Positions 6,220 to 19,778 of a stretch of DNA of 64,000 bases are shown here, one piece after another. The translations under genes and the position numbers were made by a program. Positions within the stretch are counted from its first letter, which is position 1; the number at the start of each line of letters is the position of its first letter. The notes beneath the pieces are model-generated. The model made no database searches and was not told the origin of the DNA. It was given only the letters and a program-made list of their open reading frames with translations. This stretch comes from Schizophyllum amplum (Eukaryota > Basidiomycota > Agaricomycetes > Agaricales > Schizophyllaceae), in NCBI GenBank assembly GCA_007026445.1, contig VDMD01000015.1, positions 372,001-436,000 of the forward strand. Reading direction: 5' to 3'.

Positions 6220-6444
6220 GTTGGTGACGGCGTAGAGACGCGCGTCCTCTCACACTACGGCATGAAGTGACCAACATGTACATTATACGCTCGTGTTACA
6301 ACAGCCCCCGAAGCAGTGATGCGGGCTTTCAATCAATACAGTAGCCTGGACCTCCACTCACTATTCCTTTCATGAGACTTCACGGCAAATGACGCTGCTT
6401 TGACAGAAGCTCGTTATGTCCGGATGCGTACTAGCCGTCGTGAT

Positions 6445-6609
6445 CACATACCTGTGAGGCAGGATACGCGTTGCTTCGGCAATGTGCGACGTACGAGTTC
6501 ACATACCTGTAAGGCCGGATACGCGTCGCTTCGGCGATGTACGACGTACGAGTTCACATACCTGTAAGGCAGGATACGCGTTGCTTCGGCGACGTACGAC
6601 GTACGAGTA
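6445..6609. repeat. 55-bp tandem repeat, three copies, upstream of the reductase gene
   Basis: Units start at 6445, 6500 and 6555, each opening with CACATACCTGT and closing with GACGTACGAG. Copies differ at a few positions. The array ends about 70 bp before the reductase ATG, where it would fall in the promoter or 5' leader. The short palindromic core ACGTACGT-like segment in each unit could be a repeated protein-binding site (inference). Confidence 0.92.
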
Positions 6610-8863: not shown

Positions 8864-8868
8864 CTACT
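8864..8868. repeat. Target-site duplication, left copy (CTACT)
   Basis: Five bases directly before the 5' LTR, repeated exactly at 19774-19778 directly after the 3' LTR. Five-base duplications are usual for Ty3/Gypsy integrases. Confidence 0.93.
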
Positions 8869-9064
8869 TGTAAGGGGGAGCGCCCCAAAAGGACTTAACT
8901 ATTATTTATTATATTTTGTATAACGTGTGCGAAGCTGTCCCGATTGGGACAGCTTCCTTCTTGTCACACACCATCACGTATACGTACTGAATTGCATCTT
9001 GCGGTTCTGTTTATACGTGTGTGATCTAAGGAGATAGAGCTCTACGAGGCCTTGCCTCGTTACA
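8869..9064 (+). repeat. 5' long terminal repeat
   Basis: 196 bp, starting TGTAAGG and ending CGTTACA, identical by eye to 19578-19773. It holds an 11-bp hairpin (8931-8941 with 8946-8956, loop GATT) and a 7-bp hairpin near its end (9044-9050 with 9054-9060). Confidence 0.96.
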
Positions 9065-9194
9065 CCTTTTTAAACACTCCGCCGATCGCAATTTAGTTGC
9101 GTTCACACACACACCCAAACTACGAAAATTTTCCCAAGCTTGATAAAAGCTCGGCGTCGAAGTTTCCCGTCGACAAACTTGGATACATAGCAAT

Positions 9195-12100
9195 ATGACC
9201 AAGAAGAGGAGCGGGGGAAAGAAGGCGAAAGCCGAGCAGAAGGAGCCGCGAAGGTATAACCTTCGCAGCTTCACAAAAACCGAGACGGCCATAGCCACAT
9301 CGGAAGAAGTGGCGGCGCGTGACGGAACAAACCGGGACGCGTCGCGTCAACGGTCGAAGGACGAACCTCCTCACCTGAAAAAGGAGAGTGAAGGGTCGCG
9401 GGTGAGGTCGGGAGGACGGAGCGATCCGGCCTCCACGCTCACAACTTTGACCGGAGAAGAAACGGCATCCGCTGGCCGGATGTTGAACGAGACAATGGTC
9501 GGCGATAGCCGACCTACCCCATATATCGAGTCCATAACGGGCTCGATGAGCGCGAAATCGCTGAACCCTGCCGAGCGCGGGGAGCGTCGCAACATGAAGA
9601 AGCCGGCAGCCGACTTCGACAGAGCGACGCCGCATACCAACGCGATAAGGGCACGCAACAGAACGATGAGCGTACGAGACTTCGTACGCTTGCTGTTCCT
9701 TCAATGTCAGGTAGCTGATCAGCTAAATGACATTGAGGACGCAGCCGAACGTATCGCGTCCAGTGACGGGGAGATCACTGAGGAGCAGATGGTCGATCTG
9801 CTCCAGGAGTATGTCGAACCGTCGATGCATTCGACGTTCTGGAGAGCATTGGGAGTAGCTCTCGGGGAGACACCCTCCCGAGAGCCGAGTACTGCGGACA
9901 ATGAGGATGCCGCAGTACATGCCGCAATGGTGTCTCTATTCAGAGCACGCCAGCTGGACGAGGACGACTTTACGTACCTCCGGCGACTTGAAGCCCAACG
10001 GCGTCAAGTCGAGCAACTCTTGCCTATAGGGCAAGCGTCGTCCAGCCAGTTTATCACACCACGCATGGCCGCGGTGCAGGAACTGCAGCATCAATCATTT
10101 GATGCTAGGGTTATCCTCCAGCGCATACGCGAAGGGGATATCCGAGAATCAGGAGGGACGGGAATTGGAGACCAATTCATCCGTTTCGAGCAGGACGACG
10201 TGAGCCGTCCTGCCGACATCTCCGCGGATGAGTACACTCATCTGCTCAGGGAGAAGCATCGAAGCGATACTCCTGTATCGCGGTCGAGCTCAACCCAGAC
10301 CAAGGTCAAGGACGAGTACGATGGAAGTCGTACTCATGGCCTAAGGCGATCGACGTCGTGGAAATACCCCACCGCCGACAAGGACCCTCGGCCGGTGGGT
10401 TATAAACGACGACCGCGGCGGAAGACGTCGAGGTCACCTTCCTCGTCATCCACATCCCGGTCGTCATCTTCTTCTGATGACGACGGAAAGGATAAGCGCT
10501 CTTCGCGCTACCACGGAGCCAACTGGCAAGGACGAGGTCACCGAGACTCTGGACCTCCCGACGACGACAGCTCGTCGTCGTCTTCCTCATCTAGGCCTCC
10601 ACCACGAAGGAGGCCAGGACGCGAGCCATCAAGACCTCGGGATGACAAGGGCAAGTCATCCCGATCATCGCACGGGGATCGAGGAGGACGACGTCCTCCT
10701 CCACCGCCACCTCCGGGACCACCGGGAGATGATCCCTCATCGGAGGAATCATCGTCAGAATCCAGTCGGGATGACAGACGCCGACGGCATGGTCGAGGCC
10801 GACGCTCCGCGTCTACCTCGTCGAGTGAGGATGACCGTCGCCACCGGCACAGGCGTCGACACCGCGGTCGACGCCCTGATTCCGCACCTCCAACGCGGAA
10901 TCGACAAGGGACGGCAGACGTAGAGGACAGACCTCTACGGTTCGACGATCGACAAGAGTACGAATACATTCGTTCTCGCCACGGACGGTACTCAAGGTAC
11001 ATCCGTGACCAGCTCGGCCAAGAGCTGGTATTCCCGCAAGGGGTGAAACCGGGCAACTTTAAGTTGCCCGTACCTCCCACGTACAAAGGTACTAGCGACC
11101 TTGAGGAGTTTGAGGCATGGCTTCATAGCCTAGTACGGCTGCTACGATTCACCATGATGGGTGGCCGTGGAAAGGAGAATGAGCGGGTGCTCATTACTGG
11201 CATGTACTTGTCGGGCATAGCAGAGGAATTCTACTATGACAATGTCGAGGACGTGGATCGACGAGTGCGACGGTGGACCTTCGAAGGATTGGTCCACGCA
11301 ATCTTCGACCGCTTCATCCACGACACGACGCTACAAGAAGCTACGAGCGGGTTCTGGACCGCTTCGTACGACAGCAAGTCTGGCGTACAAGGGTGGTACA
11401 ACGAGTTACTGCGCCTAGCGCGGCGTATGGTCGAAGCACCCGATGATTATACTCATCGGATGCGGTTCATTAGTGGTCTCCCACCGGATATCATGACTCG
11501 CGTGCTGGAAGAGGGATACTCAGCGGAGCGTAGTACGCTCCGCCGCATACTTAAGTCGGCACTTAAACATGAAGCTGCGTTACGCGTACGGCGAGCGTAC
11601 CGCGAAGAGCTTTCGCATGTGTTCCCTTCGGGCACTCGAAAGAGCCATGGCGATGACAAAGAGAAGTCATCGCACATTCGTGCAGAGAACCGCTCCCCAA
11701 ACCGTAGGGAGCGAAGATCCGAGCAAAGACGTGTGGTGCGCGTAGAGCGGCGCCACAGGAGCAAGGATAGGGCCGAGAGACGAGAGAGAGATCGTCGCGA
11801 GCACCGCGAGACGCCGCGAACGGGAGCGGATAACGCACGCCCCGCGGCGCCAGCGGCAGGCAGCAACAGTCGCCCGGCCGATAAGGCAGGTACCAAGAGC
11901 GGGAACTGTTACAGTTGTGGACGAGCGGGCCATTTCGCCAATGACCCCGCCTGTCCCAACTATAAGCCGCGCATGTTCGCGCAGAACGACATGGCGGCTA
12001 GCGACAGCGAACGCCGGGACGCCAGCCGGCTTGCGGCGGTGGCAGAGGTCCCCGAGCCCCCGCCGGACGACATGGAGTCGTCCGAAGGAGAGGTCGTCGA

Positions 12101-12692
12101 GTACTACGAGTACTCTGAGGACGAGACGGACGACGAGCACGAGCGCATGGACTCTATGCGCTCGGGTGACCGTATGGGGGCTATATTTCCCCCATCAAGA
12201 GAGCCCCACCGAGGGGGAACACTGCGTAAATCGACGCGTGTGGGCCATCGTCCGGAGCGAACGATGGCTGAGAAGAACTGCCTCACTGCGTTGATTCGCA
12301 TCAACGGCACGGAGGCGTTCTCGATGTTCGACTCGGGGAGCACCTTGACGGGCATCACGCCGGACTTCGCCCGGGTGAGCCAGATCAAGGTATTCGAGCT
12401 CGACAACCCCGTCACGTTGCAACTCGGGACGGTGGGATCACGATCCCGTATATCGTACGGATCGAACGTACGAGTCGATATAGCGGGGCGGTCGCGCGAC
12501 ACATATGTTGACATAGTCAACATAGACCGCTTTGATGCGATAATTGGCGCGCCCTTCATGCGTGACCATCACATCAAGCTCGATTTTGCGAGCAACACCA
12601 TACGCATGGACGGACAGGTCATTAATGCCCTGTCCGAAGGGGAGGAGACCGCCGCGATAATGCGACGGTCCGCAATGCGCAAGAAAGAGTGA
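9195..12692 (+). CDS. Retrotransposon Gag plus aspartic protease (ORF1)
   Basis: Encodes the capsid protein and protease of the element, 1165 residues. Seen: a basic N-terminus, a helical segment near residues 155-290, a Ser/Arg/Asp-rich disordered stretch at about 400-590, a retrotransposon-Gag domain at about 615-800 (FEAWLHSLVRLLRF, FWTASYDSKSGVQGWYNELL), a single zinc knuckle CYSCGRAGHFANDPAC at 905-920 and the protease loop MFDSGST with Asp1046, followed by DAIIGAPFMRD. The knuckle has six residues between His and the last Cys instead of the usual four. Stop TGA at 12690-12692 is followed directly by CTA and an open pol frame in the same phase. ATG 9195 is the first in frame after the LTR leader. 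Confidence 0.95.
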   Translation: MTKKRSGGKKAKAEQKEPRRYNLRSFTKTETAIATSEEVAARDGTNRDASRQRSKDEPPHLKKESEGSRVRSGGRSDPASTLTTLTGEETASAGRMLNETMVGDSRPTPYIESITGSMSAKSLNPAERGERRNMKKPAADFDRATPHTNAIRARNRTMSVRDFVRLLFLQCQVADQLNDIEDAAERIASSDGEITEEQMVDLLQEYVEPSMHSTFWRALGVALGETPSREPSTADNEDAAVHAAMVSLFRARQLDEDDFTYLRRLEAQRRQVEQLLPIGQASSSQFITPRMAAVQELQHQSFDARVILQRIREGDIRESGGTGIGDQFIRFEQDDVSRPADISADEYTHLLREKHRSDTPVSRSSSTQTKVKDEYDGSRTHGLRRSTSWKYPTADKDPRPVGYKRRPRRKTSRSPSSSSTSRSSSSSDDDGKDKRSSRYHGANWQGRGHRDSGPPDDDSSSSSSSSRPPPRRRPGREPSRPRDDKGKSSRSSHGDRGGRRPPPPPPPGPPGDDPSSEESSSESSRDDRRRRHGRGRRSASTSSSEDDRRHRHRRRHRGRRPDSAPPTRNRQGTADVEDRPLRFDDRQEYEYIRSRHGRYSRYIRDQLGQELVFPQGVKPGNFKLPVPPTYKGTSDLEEFEAWLHSLVRLLRFTMMGGRGKENERVLITGMYLSGIAEEFYYDNVEDVDRRVRRWTFEGLVHAIFDRFIHDTTLQEATSGFWTASYDSKSGVQGWYNELLRLARRMVEAPDDYTHRMRFISGLPPDIMTRVLEEGYSAERSTLRRILKSALKHEAALRVRRAYREELSHVFPSGTRKSHGDDKEKSSHIRAENRSPNRRERRSEQRRVVRVERRHRSKDRAERRERDRREHRETPRTGADNARPAAPAAGSNSRPADKAGTKSGNCYSCGRAGHFANDPACPNYKPRMFAQNDMAASDSERRDASRLAAVAEVPEPPPDDMESSEGEVVEYYEYSEDETDDEHERMDSMRSGDRMGAIFPPSREPHRGGTLRKSTRVGHRPERTMAEKNCLTALIRINGTEAFSMFDSGSTLTGITPDFARVSQIKVFELDNPVTLQLGTVGSRSRISYGSNVRVDIAGRSRDTYVDIVNIDRFDAIIGAPFMRDHHIKLDFASNTIRMDGQVINALSEGEETAAIMRRSAMRKKE

Positions 12693-12755
12693 CTACAAGA
12701 GAGTCACGAGAACGACCCAAGGGTGGAGGTGGTCGATGAGGAAATCGTCGACCAC
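12689..12755 (+). promoter_or_regulatory. Candidate stop-codon readthrough signal between gag-pro and pol
   Basis: TGA (12690-12692) is followed by CTA, the context best known for UGA readthrough. The stop lies in a small stem, GTGACT 12689-12694 with AGTCAC 12702-12707. A stronger stem follows: GTGGTCGATGA 12729-12739 pairs with TCGTCGACCAC 12745-12755 (11 pairs, one G-T) around the loop GGAAA. No other stop separates the two frames. Function is inferred. Confidence 0.7.
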
Positions 12756-15700
12756 ATAAACCCAGCCCCAGAATTGAACGAAGGGGAAACAGTATGCATG
12801 TCGAATGAAGAATTCGACAAGCATATGGACGGGTTGAGGGCCATACGAGTCGAAGGGATCGCCGAAAAGCGATCCCCCACCGTGGAAATTGTCGATGAAG
12901 AGGTCATCGACAACGTGAATCCCGCAGTCGAGTTAAACGACAGCGAGTCGGTATGCATGTCGAATGAAGAATTCGACAAATACCTTAAGGAAATAAAAGA
13001 AGAAAAAACATATCGTCGCAAGGATGGCGGGGGACAAGAGTCCACCGCCAAGGAGCCACCGCAGGGAAGCGATGACTGGCTGTGGAAGGAACGGCCAGTC
13101 CGAGAAAACGCGCCACAGCCCCCATGCAAATGGGAGCACATGATGCATGAGCGAATCGACGACGCTCGATACGAGAGGATCCGCGTACTATTCGAAGAAC
13201 CGTACGCATCGCGAGGACAGTTCGAGGACACGCCGGAGCGACATAATGTCGATCCGGAGGAGGGGCTACAAACCGTCATTGACTATGCGTCAATGATGCG
13301 AATTGGAGAGCATGAGGAAATCAAAGATGTCCCCATGGAGGTTCCTGTCAGGGAACCAGAGAGTCGCCGAAGCAAAGAAGAAGACGAGGCGCGTTACGCG
13401 TCGTTCACGGAGGACGACATTCCTCGCTTACGACAGAGGTGGTTGGACAAGGAGAGCGATCTCCTGTCCGGAGTTCCAGAAAAACTTCCCCCGATGAGGG
13501 AGGTTAATCATAAAATTCCGCTGATTGATGAGCAGCGGAACTACCGATACCACATGCCACGATGCGCGGAGGTGCTCAAGGAGCAACTCCTCGCTAAGAT
13601 CGGGCGGTACGAGAGAGCCGGATGGTGGGAGCAGATCAGCACCGAACAGGCTGCTCCCATGTTATGTATTCCGAAGAAGGATGGTACGCTTCGTACCGTC
13701 ATTGATTGTCGGAAGCGGAACGACAACACGGTAAAGGACGTAACTCCTTTACCGGACCAGGATCAGATTCGAATGGACGTCGCGCGCGCGCCGTACCGGT
13801 CAAAAATCGATCTATCGGATGCGTACGAGCAGGTGCGCATCGTACCTGAGGACGTAGGGAAGTCCTCATTTGCCACAATATACGGATCGTATATGAGCAA
13901 AGTGATGCAGCAAGGGGACTGCAACGCGCCATCAACCTTTCAAAGGTTGATGACGCATATCTTCCGAGACTGTATCGGAAGATTCATCCACGTATACTTG
14001 GATGATATATTCGTGTTCAGCGATTCAATCGAGGAACACGAAGGCCACTTGGCTATCATATTCTCCCGCCTCCGTGAGGCGGAATTGTATATGAAGGCTG
14101 CCAAGGTTGACCTATACGCCGAGGTAGTCGACTGCCTCGGCCATAAAATTGACCACGCCGGCCTTCACGCCGACGGGGATAAAATGGCAAAAATACGCGG
14201 GTGGCGAACCCCCCGCGACTACGGAGACATACAACGATTCCTTGGAATCGTTCAATACCTTGCGCAGTTCCTACCGGAACTGGCGGCGTACGCAGGCCCG
14301 CTAAGCGCCATAACGAAAGGGGGGCAACCCTTTTTCTGGCGAGCAATACATGAGCGATGCTTCGAGCGCATAAAGCATTTATGCTCGAAGACACCGATCC
14401 TCAAGCCCATTGACGCGCGCAAAGATGAACCAATATGGGTCATCTGCGATGCGTCCATGGCCGGAGTCGGGGCGATGTACGGCCAGGGTGAGAGCTGGAA
14501 GACTTGTCGTCCAGCTGGATTTATGTCGCGGAAATTCACCGCGACACAACGTAATTATCGTACGTTCGAGCAGGAGACGCTAGCAATACTCGAAGCTCTC
14601 CTGAAGTGGGAGGACAAATTGATCGGACGACGTATACACATCGTCACGGATCATCGAGCCCTTGAGTTCTTCCAAACTCAAGGGCGACTATCAGCCCGAC
14701 AGACGCGATGGATGGAATATCTATCGCGCTTCGACTTTGACATCACGTATGTCAAAGGGTTGGAGAACAAGGTAGCGGACGCGCTGTCCCGCTATCATTT
14801 GAATGATACATGGGAGGATATAACTCCTCCCTACGAGTACGCGAATGCCGACGTGAGGCTCGATCCTGAGGGGGAGGATCTTCCCCTCGGTCGTAAAGAG
14901 GAGTTGGATGTAGTGAACATGGCCTATGTTCACGCAATGAATGAGCGCGTAGAGGACCGCGACCTAGAGGCGGAAGAACTGGCACGAGAGGCAGAGCCCG
15001 TCCGAGAGGACGAGCTGCACCACGTGGATCCGGCGCAGAACCCAACGGTCGAGGAGATTCTGGCCAGTGGACCGGATCTCCGGGAACGGGTGGCGCAAGA
15101 ATTCTCTGAATTCTTCCGCACTATTCAAGCCAGCTACAAAGAGGACCCGCTTTGCAGTAAGATCCTCGCCGCACCACGAAAATATCACAATTTTCGCGTG
15201 TACGAAAATGTTGTATGGACCAGGAATGAGCACAACGACTGGGTCGTTGTGGTACCAAAGGGTCGCTTTGTCGACAACACGTTGCGCGGGCTTGTCGTAG
15301 AACAAGCCCATGCAGTGGTGGGTCACTATAACGCGACGCGAACCGGCGAATATATTCGCCGATGGTACTGGTGGCCGAAGATTTATTCGGACGTGGAGAA
15401 GTTCTGCAAATCTTGTGAGATTTGCCAAACCGCCAAAGGGGCCTACGCGAGTGGGGCTAAAGGCGAGCTACACAGCCTGCCGATACCCATCAAGCCGTGG
15501 GACTCCATTGGAATGGACTTTATTGGTCCATTCCCCGAGAGTCAAGGGTTCAATTATCTCTGGGTGATAATTGACAGGATGACCTCAATGGTCCACCTGA
15601 TACCGGTGAACACGACCACGACAGCCGTTGAGCTATCGTGGATTTACTTTCGGGAGATCGTTCGCCTACACGGTCTCCCTTCGTCGATTGTCAGCGACAG

Positions 15701-16652
15701 GGACTCTAAGTTCACGTCGCTATGGTGGACGGAGCTCCACCGTCTACTTGGGGCAAAGCTCCTGATGTCCACCGCCTTCCATCCTCAAACGGATGGCCAG
15801 ACGGAGCGGGCGAACCGCTCCATCGCTCAGATTCTTAGGTCGTTTGTACGACCCAATCAACGCGATTGGGTGCAACGACTTCCGTTGGTGGAGTTTGCAA
15901 TAAACTCCAGCATTAGCAGCGCGACCGGGTTCGCACCGTTCGAGCTCAACTACGGCTACATGCCGTCGATGATCCAAGAAATCCGTGAATCCACGGACAA
16001 GCCGCCCAAGGGTCTGCGGGACTTTGCTATGCAAGCCCTGCAGAACGTAGCGGACGCACACGACTGCTTAATCGAGGCGCGGGTATTCCAAAAACATCAC
16101 GCCGACAATCATCGGCGTGAGGACCCAAAGATAGGGGAGGGAGACTTTGTCTACCTATCCACCAAGAATTTAAACTTACCCAAGGGACGAGCCACTAAGC
16201 TCCTCCCTAAATTTGTCGGACCTTACAAGGTCCTGAAGGCCCAGCCCGAGTCATCGACATACGAGCTGGACCTACCAGATGCGCTCCGGCAGCGGCGGAT
16301 TCATCCGCGCTTCCACGTCAGCTTGTTGCGACCTCATGTCGCAAACGACGATGTATTATTCCCCAGTCGTGCGTTCGTGCAACACTACGACTTCGGCGCC
16401 CCCAACAACGCCGAGTTCCTCGTGAACAGGATCACGGGACACAAATGGGTCGGTGAAGAGATATTCTTCACCGTCGAATGGGAGCTCGGCGACGTGACGG
16501 ACGAGCCGTTAACGAACGTTAACGAACTCACGGCGCTGGATGACTACTTAACGCTACAAGGCGTTAAGGAATGGTCGGAGTTGCCGGGTAAGCGGCCGGT
16601 GCGGCAGCGTCGGGCGCCCGCGCGCACGCGCGGCATGGTGCGCACCAGTTGA
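12693..16652 (+). CDS. Retrotransposon Pol: reverse transcriptase, RNase H, integrase (ORF2)
   Basis: Polyprotein of about 1319 residues, open from the codon after the ORF1 stop; its first ATG is only at 12798, so it is probably made by readthrough. Seen: a duplicated 53-residue acidic module (from 12723 and 12882), reverse transcriptase with IPKKDGTLRTVIDCRKRN and the YLDD site near residue 435, RNase H with CDAS, FEQETLA, TDHRAL and VADALSR (about 585-700), the integrase zinc site (HAVVGH then CKSC, about 870-905), and catalytic core with GMDFIG, VSDRDSKF and QTDGQTERANR (Asp, Asp, Glu at about 940, 1000 and 1036). A GPYKVLK/HPRFHVSLLR end and a chromodomain-like segment (FFTVEWELGDVTDEPL) follow. 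All catalytic residues are present. No protease is in this frame; it is in ORF1. Confidence 0.95.
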   Translation, partial: LQESHENDPRVEVVDEEIVDHINPAPELNEGETVCMSNEEFDKHMDGLRAIRVEGIAEKRSPTVEIVDEEVIDNVNPAVELNDSESVCMSNEEFDKYLKEIKEEKTYRRKDGGGQESTAKEPPQGSDDWLWKERPVRENAPQPPCKWEHMMHERIDDARYERIRVLFEEPYASRGQFEDTPERHNVDPEEGLQTVIDYASMMRIGEHEEIKDVPMEVPVREPESRRSKEEDEARYASFTEDDIPRLRQRWLDKESDLLSGVPEKLPPMREVNHKIPLIDEQRNYRYHMPRCAEVLKEQLLAKIGRYERAGWWEQISTEQAAPMLCIPKKDGTLRTVIDCRKRNDNTVKDVTPLPDQDQIRMDVARAPYRSKIDLSDAYEQVRIVPEDVGKSSFATIYGSYMSKVMQQGDCNAPSTFQRLMTHIFRDCIGRFIHVYLDDIFVFSDSIEEHEGHLAIIFSRLREAELYMKAAKVDLYAEVVDCLGHKIDHAGLHADGDKMAKIRGWRTPRDYGDIQRFLGIVQYLAQFLPELAAYAGPLSAITKGGQPFFWRAIHERCFERIKHLCSKTPILKPIDARKDEPIWVICDASMAGVGAMYGQGESWKTCRPAGFMSRKFTATQRNYRTFEQETLAILEALLKWEDKLIGRRIHIVTDHRALEFFQTQGRLSARQTRWMEYLSRFDFDITYVKGLENKVADALSRYHLNDTWEDITPPYEYANADVRLDPEGEDLPLGRKEELDVVNMAYVHAMNERVEDRDLEAEELAREAEPVREDELHHVDPAQNPTVEEILASGPDLRERVAQEFSEFFRTIQASYKEDPLCSKILAAPRKYHNFRVYENVVWTRNEHNDWVVVVPKGRFVDNTLRGLVVEQAHAVVGHYNATRTGEYIRRWYWWPKIYSDVEKFCKSCEICQTAKGAYASGAKGELHSLPIPIKPWDSIGMDFIGPFPESQGFNYLWVIIDRMTSMVHLIPVNTTTTAVELSWIYFREIVRLHGLPSSIVSDRDSKFTSLWWTELHRLLGAKLLMSTAFHPQTDGQTERANRSIAQILRSFVRPNQRDWVQRLPLVEFAINSSISSATGFAPFELNYGYMPSMIQEIRESTDKPPKGLRDFAMQALQNVADAHDCLIEARVFQKHHADNHRREDPKIGEGDFVYLSTKNLNLPKGRATKLLPKFVGPYKVLKAQPESSTYELDLPDALRQRRIHPRFHVSLLRPHVANDDVLFPSRAFVQHYDFGAPNNAEFLVNRITGHKWVGEEIFFTVEWELGDVTDEPLTNVNELTALDDYLTLQGVKEWSELPGKRPVRQRRAPARTRGMVRTS

Positions 16653-16658
16653 ACATAA

Positions 16659-16678
16659 CTCACGTGCACGCACGTGAG
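16659..16678 (+). other. 8-bp hairpin directly after the pol stop
   Basis: CTCACGTG (16659-16666) and CACGTGAG (16671-16678) flank the loop CACG. It lies seven bases after the TGA that ends pol. Two more strong stems follow before or just inside ORF3: 16758-16768 with 16773-16783, and 16824-16836 with 16839-16851. Confidence 0.8.
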
Positions 16679-16796
16679 ATCACGCTGGGCCACCCGCGTG
16701 ACTCAGACTGTAAAGTCTCGGCAAGTGCCGACACCGTCACAGTGTCGGTCACAACGCGGAAGGAACTTTTCCAAGTTCCTTCCAACTACCACTCTG

Positions 16797-19205
16797 ATGG
16801 ACACGAACAGCACTCACCATAACGCTGCGACGACTGCACAGTCGTCGCAGCAGGGGGAGGGCCCCGTCCATCATTTACACCATATGCAAGTGGATGACGA
16901 CATCCGCGAGCGAAAATTCGAGGCGAATACGTTCGTCGGCGCGCTGATATGCGGGTGCTCGATCTGCACCGCATACATGCAGCACGTCTTCAGCGCTGTG
17001 ACGGCCAATAACGCGTCCCTCATGGAGGCCAGGCAGCGGCTCTGGGGCACCGGGCCGGCGGCGGCGCCACAAGTGGCGACGCCGCCGCAAGGAACGGACG
17101 AGAGAATGCGCGAGCGGATGGAGAGGCTCGCGCATGAGAGGGACGATGCACGCAAGCGGATGGAGAGGCTTGCGCGCGAGAGAGATGAGGCCCGCGACGA
17201 CGTAGAGGTCGCGCAAGGCGAATTGCAGCACGCCAACGACAAGCTGTCGATGGCATTCTGCGAGCTGGACCAGTGGCGTGTGCGCGAACACCTCCACACG
17301 GAACATGTGGCGTCGCGCTATTCCACGGTGTCGGGCCAGTTCGTTGATACGAACACGGCCCCGCGTCTGTGGATCGAATTCTCCGCGGAGGACATCCTCC
17401 ACGGGCAAGAGCGCGACGACGCTATGCGCCGCATCGTCGAACGCGCCAAGCGGTCGTCTGGGAAGGGAGTGGACCGACGGTCCACTGCCGAGAGAGGGGG
17501 CGCAAGCGCGAGCACGAGCACGGCCCAGCCGTACCCAGGCGCCGGTATGCCATTCACCATCGGCCCCGTCGTGACCGATGGCTACATGGACGACTACTCG
17601 GACCGCGCGACGTCGAGCGACGAGGACGACGGCAGTTCCGTCGGCCAGAAGCGGAAGGCGACGAGGACCAGCGGAGGTCAGAGGAGCCGCGGGTGGGAAC
17701 AAGGCGCTGGCGGGTCAGCCAGCGCACCGCCACCACCGCCAACACCGCAGGCCCTACCGCCGCAGGCTTCGCAGCCGCAGGCGTTCCTACCGCAGCAACA
17801 GGGTCTGACCCTCGCAGCGGGAGGAAACATGCGTGGCCGCGGAACGTTCTTCCGCGGCGGGCGAGGGCTACCGCGGCAGGGGGCGGTCGGGCGCTCGGGG
17901 CGGACGAAACCGCCGCCCCCCATATCACTCGATGAGGTGCTACAGGGCCGCGATCCAACCGAGATCGAGGACCCCGAGATGAAGCGGCTGGTGCAGACGT
18001 TCTTGGACATCTGCGAGGTCGACCCCGAGAACATCACATCCGACGACTTGCGTCGTCGCGTGTTGTACACGAACGAGGTCAAGGTCGCCCAGGCGTGCGA
18101 CAAGTTCTTGCGCACGCGGCCGCAACGCTTCCTCCTCGGGCAGAGCCAGATGCCCAAGTGGCCTGGCCATACGAAGGGGCAGCAGAGCCAGCCGGGAAAG
18201 CGATCTGGCCTGGGGCCGATGCTGTCGTATTACGCGGCGAACCACATCACCGCGCCGCGGGGCATACGCTCCGTAGAGTACACGAAGGAGATCGTCCTGA
18301 TCTCCATTCCTCATGTACGGGGCTACCGACTAGTGTCGTTGGCCATCCCGACGCTGTTCACGTTCGCGGAAGCCGCTAGCTTCCGCGACTTGTTCGTGAT
18401 GTTCATCATCGAGGTGATGTGCGTGCCGCTCGACACGGGTCGGGTCGGGTATGAAGCCTGGATCGAGGCCCTGCAGACGCCGACCACCACCGTGCGTACG
18501 GCTACGCCGTACGACCCGTTCGCAATGGGACCGTTGACGTCCTCAACGCTCGTCGCGTACCTGACCAGCATCGGGGTCAGCACGATCGAGTTGGGCGACG
18601 CCTTGCCGTACTGTATCGAGTACGTGTACAAGCGTGCGTCGTCCATGACGTCCCCCGATGGTGTCGCGGCTATGCGGCGTGCATACGTGGCCGCCCTGCA
18701 GTTTCGTGGGCTGAACGCGTGGCCTGTCGGGCTACCAGGACCACGCTACTGGACGTCGTTCAGTGGTGATGTCCATAACGGCGTACGCTACGCCGACCCG
18801 GTCATGCCTGGCGACACCCAGCGCCTCGTACTGCGGCCTACAGCGTTGCAGGGCGACATCGTCGACCCCCTCGGCCACCTGTTCTACAACCCGCGTACGG
18901 CGCTGGAGGCCGAGCAGTTTGGCCCCTGCATTCCGATCCAGGTCGCGTCATGGCCAGACCCATCACTCCGCGCGCCGCCGCCGCCGCCTCCGCCATCAGC
19001 GCCATCGCCCGCCACGACCAGCGCCATCCCCGCCACCGGTTCGACCCCGGCCGCGGATCCTTCCGCGAGTGCCTCGACGGCAGTCGACGTATCGTCGACT
19101 GCCCACGACGTGGTGATGACCGAGACAACAACCGGGGACGGCGGTCAGACAACCGCCGGGCCGGCCGCTGTGTCGACAGAGAGCGGGGCCGCAGAGCCGT
19201 CGTAG
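16797..19205 (+). CDS. Retrotransposon ORF3, coiled-coil protein of unknown function
   Basis: An 802-residue frame between pol and the 3' LTR, the place where envelope or accessory genes sit in some Ty3/Gypsy elements. ATG 16797 is the first in frame; the phase equals that of ORF1 and ORF2, with TGA and TAA after pol. Seen: a Thr/Gln/His-rich N-terminus, a charged coiled coil at about 100-150 with the repeated unit RMERLA-ERD-AR, a Ser-rich stretch, a Gln/Pro and Gly/Arg-rich region (RGRGTFFRGGRGLPRQG), a compact hydrophobic region at about 475-710 (ISIPHVRGYRLVSLAIP), and a Pro/Ala/Thr tail. There is no signal peptide, no cysteine-rich ectodomain and no clear membrane anchor, so I do not call it an envelope. 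RNA binding is possible from the RGG-like part. I do not recognise the family. Confidence 0.85.
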   Translation: MDTNSTHHNAATTAQSSQQGEGPVHHLHHMQVDDDIRERKFEANTFVGALICGCSICTAYMQHVFSAVTANNASLMEARQRLWGTGPAAAPQVATPPQGTDERMRERMERLAHERDDARKRMERLARERDEARDDVEVAQGELQHANDKLSMAFCELDQWRVREHLHTEHVASRYSTVSGQFVDTNTAPRLWIEFSAEDILHGQERDDAMRRIVERAKRSSGKGVDRRSTAERGGASASTSTAQPYPGAGMPFTIGPVVTDGYMDDYSDRATSSDEDDGSSVGQKRKATRTSGGQRSRGWEQGAGGSASAPPPPPTPQALPPQASQPQAFLPQQQGLTLAAGGNMRGRGTFFRGGRGLPRQGAVGRSGRTKPPPPISLDEVLQGRDPTEIEDPEMKRLVQTFLDICEVDPENITSDDLRRRVLYTNEVKVAQACDKFLRTRPQRFLLGQSQMPKWPGHTKGQQSQPGKRSGLGPMLSYYAANHITAPRGIRSVEYTKEIVLISIPHVRGYRLVSLAIPTLFTFAEAASFRDLFVMFIIEVMCVPLDTGRVGYEAWIEALQTPTTTVRTATPYDPFAMGPLTSSTLVAYLTSIGVSTIELGDALPYCIEYVYKRASSMTSPDGVAAMRRAYVAALQFRGLNAWPVGLPGPRYWTSFSGDVHNGVRYADPVMPGDTQRLVLRPTALQGDIVDPLGHLFYNPRTALEAEQFGPCIPIQVASWPDPSLRAPPPPPPPSAPSPATTSAIPATGSTPAADPSASASTAVDVSSTAHDVVMTETTTGDGGQTTAGPAAVSTESGAAEPS

Positions 19206-19567
19206 GCGTGCGGACGAGATCGTCCGCGACGCGCCTCGACGCAACAGCACCGGCGGCGTTGTCGTCTCCGGTGGGCTGACTGTGGTCGTTCGTCGGGGGT
19301 CGCCGTATCACGAGACCGGATGGCTCTGATCTGCGGGTCGCCCTGGTATTCAAACTTGCTCCAGACGAGACGTTACGCGCAATGTGTAACCCTCGTCTGT
19401 TTTTATTTTATCTGTCATTCTCGGCGCCGGTGTATCTATCTGATGCACCGGCTCATCTTGTACTCACTCGCGCGCCGGGGCATCATAGCGATGCACCGGC
19501 CTATCTTGGACTATTCCGCGTCAACGGACGCGCCTTTCTTGAAGGATGGAGACGTGTGCCACGTCTC

Positions 19568-19577
19568 AGGGGGAGGG
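19568..19577 (+). other. Polypurine tract
   Basis: AGGGGGAGGG ends at the base before the 3' LTR, as expected for the plus-strand primer of an LTR retrotransposon. Confidence 0.85.
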
Positions 19578-19773
19578 TGTAAGGGGGAGCGCCCCAAAAG
19601 GACTTAACTATTATTTATTATATTTTGTATAACGTGTGCGAAGCTGTCCCGATTGGGACAGCTTCCTTCTTGTCACACACCATCACGTATACGTACTGAA
19701 TTGCATCTTGCGGTTCTGTTTATACGTGTGTGATCTAAGGAGATAGAGCTCTACGAGGCCTTGCCTCGTTACA
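19578..19773 (+). repeat. 3' long terminal repeat
   Basis: 196 bp, identical by eye to 8869-9064, including the 11-bp hairpin (19640-19650 with 19655-19665). Followed by the right copy of the target duplication. Confidence 0.96.
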
Positions 19774-19778
19774 CTACT
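19774..19778. repeat. Target-site duplication, right copy (CTACT)
   Basis: Exact match to 8864-8868. Confidence 0.93.

Follow-up and report, generated by a model that had tools for sequence, protein, structure and literature searches.

The window analysed here is a stretch of 64,000 nt from Schizophyllum amplum, and positions 8869-19773 of it hold a retrotransposon. The element and its parts, in window coordinates, are the following.

8869..19773, plus strand: retrotransposon, stem-rich (109 perfect stems of at least 7 bp; MFED 22.9%)
8864..8868, no strand: TSD CTACT, second copy at 19774-19778 (sequence inspection)
8869..9064, plus strand: 5' LTR, 196 bp, TGTAAG...GTTACA, identical to 19578-19773
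at 8931, plus strand: 5' LTR hairpin, 11 bp, perfect (stem count)
9195..12692, plus strand: ORF1, putative Gag region, CCHC knuckle and aspartic protease; 40 stems of at least 7 bp
12723..16652, plus strand: ORF2, RT, RNase H, integrase and SH3_Tf2-1 (Pfam); 44 stems of at least 7 bp
12723..12986, plus strand: internal duplication, units 12723-12827 and 12882-12986, 76 of 105 nt identical
13930..13952, plus strand: perfect stem in the RT-coding part, 11 bp, loop 1, absent from the stems listed in the preliminary description
16674..19205, plus strand: ORF3, 843 aa; 18 stems of at least 7 bp
16824..16851, plus strand: longest perfect stem, 13 bp, loop 2 (15 bp in copy C264)
19578..19773, plus strand: 3' LTR, carrying the 11-bp hairpin of the 5' LTR at 19640

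Ty3-type LTR retrotransposons (Metaviridae) are recognized by a pair of LTRs with a TSD and by the order Gag/PR, RT-RNase H, integrase. Here, the two 196-bp LTRs are identical and flanked by CTACT, and the Pfam matches across ORF1 and ORF2 run from PR through RT-RNase H to integrase. The element is a young, multi-copy Ty3-type LTR retrotransposon. In ORF1, Pfam matched RVP_2 (5.8e-06) and, under the cut-off, zf-CCHC (0.0037); the Gag capsid has no Pfam match, and the Gag label is a probable one based on position and the knuckle. For the ORF2 integrase, H2C2 was matched and rve fell narrowly under the cut-off. ORF3 has no Pfam match, and none of the candidates scored is a homolog at E<=0.001; the ORF is weakly similar to the third ORF of a sister family. 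Both units of the internal duplication keep a stem (12729, 12889).

The preliminary description had reported dense perfect inverted repeats in this element. They are real, and the report was too modest (109 stems of at least 7 bp against 8.2 after shuffling). Allowing loops of 0-12 nt, we counted 109, 68 and 37 perfect stems of at least 7, 8 and 9 bp, respectively, with the LTR hairpin counted twice and a GAC-repeat hairpin (10559/10560) in two registers. The corresponding means in 100 dinucleotide shuffles of the element were 8.15, 2.07 and 0.46, and the maxima 20, 6 and 4; the earlier chance figure of about 0.5 for 9-bp stems agrees with the mean of 0.46. Expressed as ratios of counts, the enrichment grows about 2.5-fold with each base pair. 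The excess is confined to loops of approximately 1-13 nt, and loops of 3-8 nt occur in 76 of the 109 stems. All 18 stems listed earlier were found, including the one with a single T-G pair at 12729/12745; the stem at 18365/18379 proved to be 10 bp long, not 9, and to start at 18364.

The stems had also been said to run through LTRs, leader, ORFs and spacers. This is true of the LTRs and the ORFs (11/kb in ORF1 and ORF2, a lower 7.1/kb in ORF3); the 129-nt leader has a single stem, of 6 bp, and neither short spacer (30 and 21 nt) has one of at least 6 bp. Similarly, a stem about every 50 nt at 9665-10110 is obtained only if 6-bp stems are included (12 of at least 6 bp, 7 of at least 7 bp, 4 of at least 9 bp). 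The trait is bounded by the element ends: when density is compared as had been proposed, the element stands above its shuffles, and the rest of the 64-kb window shows no stem excess (44 in 53,094 nt versus 39.8 after shuffling). Stem density is also independent of protein sequence and codon use. Codon-preserving shuffles (100 for each ORF) gave far fewer stems than observed in ORF1 (4.6 versus 40), ORF2 (3.2 versus 44) and ORF3 (4.1 versus 18), bearing out the earlier claim that protein coding is no explanation. All three codon-phase classes of stems are used (38/31/33), and stem coverage is 0.20 at codons invariant in 12 relatives and 0.16 at poorly conserved codons. That chance, base composition or protein sequence makes the stems is contradicted by both kinds of shuffle and has next to no probability. 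A comparison of the element with the known structured RNA families of Rfam gave 0 matches at the gathering score.

Folding energies were compared with dinucleotide shuffles in 350-nt windows. The MFED of the element is 22.9%, and each of its 61 windows exceeds in stability the average of that window's shuffles; MFED clearly above order-shuffled controls genome-wide is a feature of GORS. Against codon-preserving shuffles, MFED is 23.1% for ORF1, 25.6% for ORF2 and 11.8% for ORF3. The yardsticks are the RNA phages MS2 (27.4%) and Qbeta (32.8%), and 16 kb outside the element yield -0.1%. In the MFE folds counted, duplex runs reach 12 bp at most.

The same trait is present in three further copies, the pol-region loci of four copies having an MFED of 22.4-24.8%. 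It is weaker in the two nearest families, with MFED of 8.8-11.0% in the sister family (six overlapping loci), and of 14.4% over the 5' 7.4 kb and 5.4 and 8.9% at the pol loci of the C82 element. The remaining Ty3 families of the genome show it slightly or not at all (-2.7 to 4.7% at 15 loci; the survey left out L012, L015 and L020), with a slight stem surplus at some of these loci (L028, 9 versus 2.4; L029, 10 versus 3.5). Host stretches included in the comparison lack it. Conservation, which the preliminary description had proposed to check, is thus limited to the family: its copies have the stems in common, and the sister family (74% aa) does not share them. Where the sister family can be aligned, 46-47% of the element's pairs are complementary, and compensatory double changes number 5/22, 5/25 and 7/28 for three copies. 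Pairings that are not conserved between related genomes are a further feature of GORS. No relatives of ORF2 were found in viral_contigs, genome_contigs or phages, and relatives elsewhere, at 54-63% identity, are protein sequences only; the DNA-level comparison is limited to elements of the same genome.

Among the copies, the substitution rate is lowered in perfect stems. We took the stems from a real other copy and used the nearest copy as reference. Only 13 of 277 singletons fall in stems versus 48.4 expected when the divergent tracts of copy C264 are included, and 12 of 167 versus 28.1 without them (p=4e-4). With these tracts dropped, third codon positions have 9 stem singletons of 130 versus 22.5 expected, and stem losses number 7 versus 21.8, with none of 150 random placements giving so low a value. 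Loops show no depletion (13 singletons versus 16.3). Mutations costing more than 1.5 kcal/mol are fewer than in matched random sets on both the sense (62 versus 92.8) and the antisense strand (51 versus 87.6). Some observations count against selection: a more distant reference copy gives a weaker constraint (17 versus 28.4, p=0.017), ORF2 by itself has 9 of 51 singletons in stems, equal to expectation, the partial copy C1 has 2 of 17 versus 1.8, compensated pairs are scarce, and singletons are in surplus in stem flanks (57 versus 42.4). Differences between the two copy pairs (32 in stems versus 35.3) were counted with a mask biased upward.

We based the conclusion about constraint on perfect stems and polarised singletons. 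Stem gains are 11 versus 5.9 with the divergent tracts of C264 and 4 versus 3.4 without; the excess hangs on these tracts and was withdrawn. A test of paired against unpaired sites by pair probability was rejected, as its outcome varies with the copy folded. The wider paired/unpaired contrast is gone or reversed once the pairing of both states is taken at maximum. Lower variability at paired sites, a further mark of GORS, is thus seen in perfect stems but not consistently across all predicted pairs. For the sister family the contrast is 57/5858 versus 49/2783 with mean pairing and 128/6438 versus 38/2527 with maximum pairing, and, since the effect is lost in the latter, we did not use it. The control pair L022-L024, the sole alignable one of four, shows no constraint (29/2009 paired versus 11/1109 unpaired).

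Copies tend to retain their hairpins, suggesting that a folded RNA genome is necessary to the element. The reading we consider best, with a probability of roughly 0.6, is GORS: over most of its length, the genomic RNA would be maintained in a folded state as a string of short hairpins, mostly with perfect Watson-Crick pairing, whose stems are 7-13 bp and whose loops are mainly 3-8 nt. Because stem positions turn over between families, selection would act on how folded the RNA is as a whole rather than on individual stems. Less surely, foldedness might serve compaction of the RNA and its packaging by the Gag of the element's clade. The preliminary description had named selection for a structured genomic RNA and a palindrome-making reverse transcriptase as possible causes. 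The former is better supported, because copies keep stems, stem density is undiminished in invariant codons, compensated double changes are rare although arm-copying should yield them in number, and the trait recurs in weaker form in the two nearest families but hardly or not at all in other Ty3 families.

The trait had been thought to be without a described precedent. Its type, however, is known from positive-strand RNA viruses (HCV, pegivirus, coronaviruses), for which the available part of PMC7642675 describes structure in coding and noncoding regions, many consecutive short stem-loops of limited duplex length, positions poorly conserved between relatives and scarce covariation. The element resembles them in its genome-long short stem-loops with shifting positions, little covariation and short duplexes, and its MFED (own shuffles, 350-nt windows) is close to the top vertebrate RNA virus value given in that part, 23.4%. 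It differs in being a retrotransposon that replicates via DNA, in its unusually many perfect hairpins and in the lack of a sense-strand bias in its family. As to LTR retrotransposons, none among the matches listed (titles and abstract starts) was described with GORS.

The purpose of GORS in vertebrate RNA viruses, hiding from innate sensors or other, is debated. For the element, it is possible, though we hold it only tentatively, that the folded RNA is shielded from RNA silencing by being hidden from Argonaute-siRNA and RdRP. The host carries RNAi-type genes (Argonaute, RdRP and Dicer-domain matches were found in the genome), and duplex runs do not exceed 12 bp; stems of such length are too short for Dicer. 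In RNA viruses, GORS has been tied to persistence and shielding, as far as the excerpts of PMC7642675 and PMC3695492 go. Against this, Ty3 families elsewhere in this genome have little or no structure, and maize TE hairpins accompany more small RNAs, not fewer (PMC10760457, in excerpt). We slightly prefer packaging, because a host-wide pressure should mark other Ty3 families too. A retrotransposon clade with the trait at RNA-phage strength beside Ty3 families with little or no structure, in the presence of RNAi-type genes, constitutes a natural experiment: within one cell, structured and unstructured families can be set against each other for their small RNAs, transcript levels and packaging.

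Strand and wobble signals bear on explanations at the DNA level. A preference for the sense strand is our own expectation and no published GORS criterion. The element family has no such signature (MFED 24.0 on the plus and 24.2 on the minus strand), and the sense-antisense difference of sister copy C101 is just +1.3 +- 1.1. For the C82 element, folding favours the sense strand by 4.2 points (48 windows, p=0.004), its 5' piece giving +2.7 +- 1.5 or +4.8 +- 1.4 depending on the window grid; the pooled advantage of one sister copy and both C82 pieces (+2.6, p=0.008) is driven by C82. The preference is small in MS2 and Qbeta too. Strand symmetry of folding z-scores was dropped as proof against RNA selection, RNA phages being nearly symmetric. 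The element family also shows no preference for G-U pairs, which counts against RNA selection: its one-mismatch stems comprise 3 G-T, 9 A-C and 16 others, and helices with a wobble exceed shuffles 5.4-fold for G-T and 6.2-fold for A-C. Qbeta, by contrast, favours G-U (5.9-fold versus 2.5-fold, small counts).

Because of this absence of G-U preference, DNA-level palindrome-making stays a candidate, albeit an unlikely one. In quasipalindrome template switching, nascent cDNA would fold back, copy its own arm and rejoin the template, perfecting inverted repeats. The mechanism is known in E. coli and yeast and would yield perfect local inverted repeats, yet the available text of PMC7202029 describes it as single events. 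It fits stems that are Watson-Crick perfect, G-U intolerant and strand-symmetric, an excess restricted to short loops and the use of all codon-phase classes. The stem at 16962 is lineage-specific with one arm rewritten; another one-arm difference between lineages lies at 16934, and both-arm differences at 16679 and 17322. However, about half of the arm mutations should then reach the partner (reasoned, not simulated), whereas 2 of 125 variable stem pairs among copies are compensated. Nor are stems depleted at invariant codons, and the trait is scant or missing in other Ty3 families; the predictions of compensation and codon conservation thus fail. A left/right arm bias relative to the sister family is absent as well (11 versus 10, 10 ties), but synonymous sites are saturated, and we discarded arm polarity as uninformative. 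It is still a little less probable that the element's own reverse transcription perfects and maintains the repeats, the folded RNA being a by-product that is tolerated or used. If a polymerase does make palindromes, this would be a new mutational signature.

Equally improbable is a role of single-stranded DNA, in which hairpins in minus-strand cDNA would aid synthesis, or paired bases would be shielded from damage and stems passively enriched. Strand symmetry, the lack of G-U preference, the lower rate in stems, the roughly 2.5-fold enrichment per base pair and stem gains at chance level outside the C264 tracts are all in line with it. On the other hand, a damage signature is absent (the four transitions occur at similar rates of 0.015-0.020 per base), the trait is slight or absent in the genome's other Ty3 families, and the sense strand is favoured in the C82 element.

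Over-structured local regions are also found within maize TEs; there, in the excerpt of PMC10760457, they are pre-miRNA-like and tied to small RNAs, unlike the short stems throughout the element. Genomic RNA of yeast Ty3 and Ty1 likewise has structured parts, but SHAPE revealed a structural mosaic with stable regions in at most 30% of the RNA (PMC11381356, in part), against 61/61 windows above shuffle means here, a rough comparison since the measures differ. RNA phages MS2 and Qbeta have a folding excess comparable in size to that of the element, which nevertheless has 2-5 times more perfect stems of at least 7 bp (10.0 per kb versus 2.0 in MS2 and 4.6 in Qbeta).

The hairpin-rich element, a Ty3-type LTR retrotransposon, lies entirely on the forward strand and has the following parts:

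8869–19773 (+), LTR retrotransposon of 10,905 bp, bounded by identical LTRs and a CTACT duplication
8869–9064 and 19578–19773 (+), LTRs, 196 bp each, identical to each other
ORF1 (+), zinc knuckle and protease
ORF2 (+), RT, RNase H and integrase
16674–19205 (+), ORF3, without domain assignment

In the searches made, no homolog of ORF3 was detectable apart from a weak alignment (26.6% over 320 aa, pairwise E 1e-14) to the sister (nearest related Ty3) family's third ORF. In the other copies of the element, its best matches are split or contain stops.

With loops of 0–12 nt, the element contains 109 stems (perfect inverted repeats) of at least 7 bp, 68 of at least 8 bp and 37 of at least 9 bp, compared with means of 8.15, 2.07 and 0.46 in its dinucleotide shuffles (n = 100). 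Against codon-preserving shuffles, we counted 40 versus 4.6 stems in ORF1, 44 versus 3.2 in ORF2 and 18 versus 4.1 in ORF3. Elsewhere in the window (53,094 nt) we counted 44 stems where 39.8 were expected, so the count proposed in the preliminary description places the excess in the element only. All 18 stems named there are present; its extension of the pattern to leader and spacers did not hold, as these short regions have at most one 6-bp stem. The excess is confined to loops of about 1–13 nt (3–8 nt in 76 of the 109 stems), and the stems are therefore local hairpins.

The folding-energy excess over dinucleotide shuffles (MFED, 350-nt windows) is 22.9%, and all 61 windows of the element are more stable than their own shuffle means. 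Codon-preserving shuffles gave 23.1% for ORF1, 25.6% for ORF2 and 11.8% for ORF3. With 250-nt windows the element (23.3%) resembles the RNA phages MS2 (27.4%) and Qbeta (32.8%), while 16 kb of the window outside it gave −0.1%. The phages nevertheless have far fewer stems of at least 7 bp (2.0 and 4.6 per kb, respectively, versus 10.0). For vertebrate RNA viruses, the values in PMC7642675 are 7.5–10.7% (HCV) and about 15% (SARS-CoV-2), with a recorded maximum of 23.4%, all obtained with a shuffling program other than ours. Among the matches listed for retrotransposons/retroelements, genome-scale ordered RNA structure (GORS) and quasipalindromes in a PMC subset (titles and abstract starts), there was no report of an LTR retrotransposon with such ordered structure or saturated with perfect hairpins. 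PMC11381356 characterizes the RNA of yeast Ty3 as a structural mosaic.

The genome (49.65 Mb, probably of a basidiomycete fungus judging from named relatives) contains three further copies of the family (pol matches of 98–100% aa, one with a poorer 72% end piece) and a partial copy on contig C1. The three copies have similar stem counts (110, 111 and 109), and 15 of 17 regional stems are common to the partial copy. MFED is 22.4–24.8% at pol-region loci of the four family copies and 8.8–11.0% at six overlapping loci of the sister family (57–76% aa). Another near family, the C82 element, shows 14.4% in its 5′ 7.4 kb and 5.4 and 8.9% at pol loci. Fifteen loci of more distant Ty3 families range from −2.7 to 4.7% (L025–L027 being the 4.3–4.7% loci), three longer stretches of such families from −1.9 to 0.9%, and eight 6-kb window stretches outside the element from −4.1 to 1.9%. 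The trait is thus a graded property of one clade and not of the host. LTR pairs of the sister and C82 copies are 99.6–100% identical; these copies are therefore young, and their lower density does not stem from decay. A separate ORF3 does not seem to be needed, since the C82 element has a single long frame (open at 2,952 aa) instead of three ORFs. The C82 LTRs (L044:646–934 and L045:2125–2413; 289 bp, identical) carry perfect hairpins of 8 and 9 bp. In the sister copy on contig C297 (L039–L041), about 9.6 kb of other sequence separates the pol halves.

Other copies differ from the window copy by 53 to 373 substitutions. Of the 277 copy-specific substitutions, 269 lie in ORFs, and third codon positions account for 188 of these, which indicates lineages under protein constraint. 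With stems of the nearest real copy as reference, only 13 of the 277 fall in stems (48.4 expected). The copy on contig C264 (L033/L034) has two divergent tracts (window 16700–17100 and 11560–11760) with up to 17–23 differences per 100 nt and far fewer elsewhere; recombination with a lineage not seen among the copies would give such a picture. Stems in these tracts partly differ from those of other copies. Some in the divergent tract are lineage-specific, through changes in a single arm at 16962 and 16934, in both arms at 16679 and 17322, and with a compensated pair at 17294/17310. Without the tracts, 12 of 167 substitutions fall in stems (28.1 expected, p = 4e-4), as do 9 of 130 at third positions (22.5 expected). 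Stem losses, again without the tracts, number 7 versus 21.8 expected, as low in none of 150 random placements. The depletion persists with a more distant copy as reference (17 versus 28.4, p = 0.017) or with C264 dropped altogether (11 versus 20.5, p = 0.02). Loops are not depleted (13 versus 16.3), and the eight bases adjoining stems are enriched (57 versus 42.4). Counting stems of either copy, pairwise differences in stems were 53 versus 75.1 expected (window–C264), 46 versus 53.6 (window–C38), 26 versus 47.1 (C264–C38) and 50 versus 76.4 (C224–C264). There was no depletion in ORF2 alone (9 of 51), in the partial copy (2 of 17, 1.8 expected) or in differences between the two copy pairs (32 versus 35.3, the mask being biased upward). 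Stem gains exceed chance only when the C264 tracts are included. The constraint is seen for perfect stems; over all predicted pairs, the outcome depended on the copy chosen for folding.

At the element's stem sites, 46–47% of pairs in the sister family are complementary, with compensation at chance. Because stem places differ between the two families, pressure seems to act on foldedness itself. In coronaviruses with GORS, stem positions are likewise not kept between relatives, according to the part of PMC7642675 consulted. Foldedness may serve compaction and packaging by the clade's Gag, which would fit the restriction to one clade. Shielding of the folded RNA from silencing would also fit: duplexes are short (runs of at most 12 bp) and the genome has Argonaute, RdRP and Dicer-domain matches, but this leaves unexplained why other Ty3 families manage without folding. 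Matches to the RNAi-type RdRP family PF05183 come in 45 pieces spread over 13 contigs and probably represent many genes or pseudogenes.

Alternatively, a palindrome-making process could rewrite one arm as a copy of the other. Three points favour selection for structured RNA over such a process, and two are opposite. Arm copying would pass about half of arm mutations to the partner, yet compensated double changes make up 2 of 125 variable stem pairs. Blind rewriting should be purged at invariant codons, but stems are at least as dense there (coverage 0.20 at codons invariant in 12 relatives, 0.16 at variable ones). Moreover, the trait is weak or absent in the remaining Ty3 families of the genome. 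On the other side, G-U is no commoner than A-C mismatches in the element family, whereas it is preferred in Qbeta. Codon phases of stems are also nearly even (38/31/33), so amino acids must also have changed; at codons invariant in relatives, the element deviates at 4 of the 49 that lie in stems and at 4 of the 237 that do not, a difference noticed after the fact. Among recent stem changes, those leaving sense-strand G-U (10 versus 16.8 expected) are, in small numbers, somewhat less avoided than those leaving A-C (5 versus 16.2) or transversions (3 versus 14.2). In the C82 element, folding is stronger on the sense strand than on the antisense (by 4.2 points over 48 windows, p = 0.004), with no clear preference in the sister family (+1.3 ± 1.1) and none in the element family (−0.2 ± 1.5). 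Because the two strands of RNA phages differ by 2–3 points, symmetry between strands argues only weakly for or against either process.

Three repeats were also observed. An in-frame duplication of 105 nt at the start of ORF2 (window 12723–12986) keeps a homologous hairpin in both units, with one compensatory pair. Between ORF3 and the 3′ LTR (window 19420–19512), each of the two units of a 48-nt direct repeat has a hairpin of 11 positions with one mismatch. Outside the element, at window 6444–6608, a 55-bp unit is repeated in tandem, with three copies at 92%.
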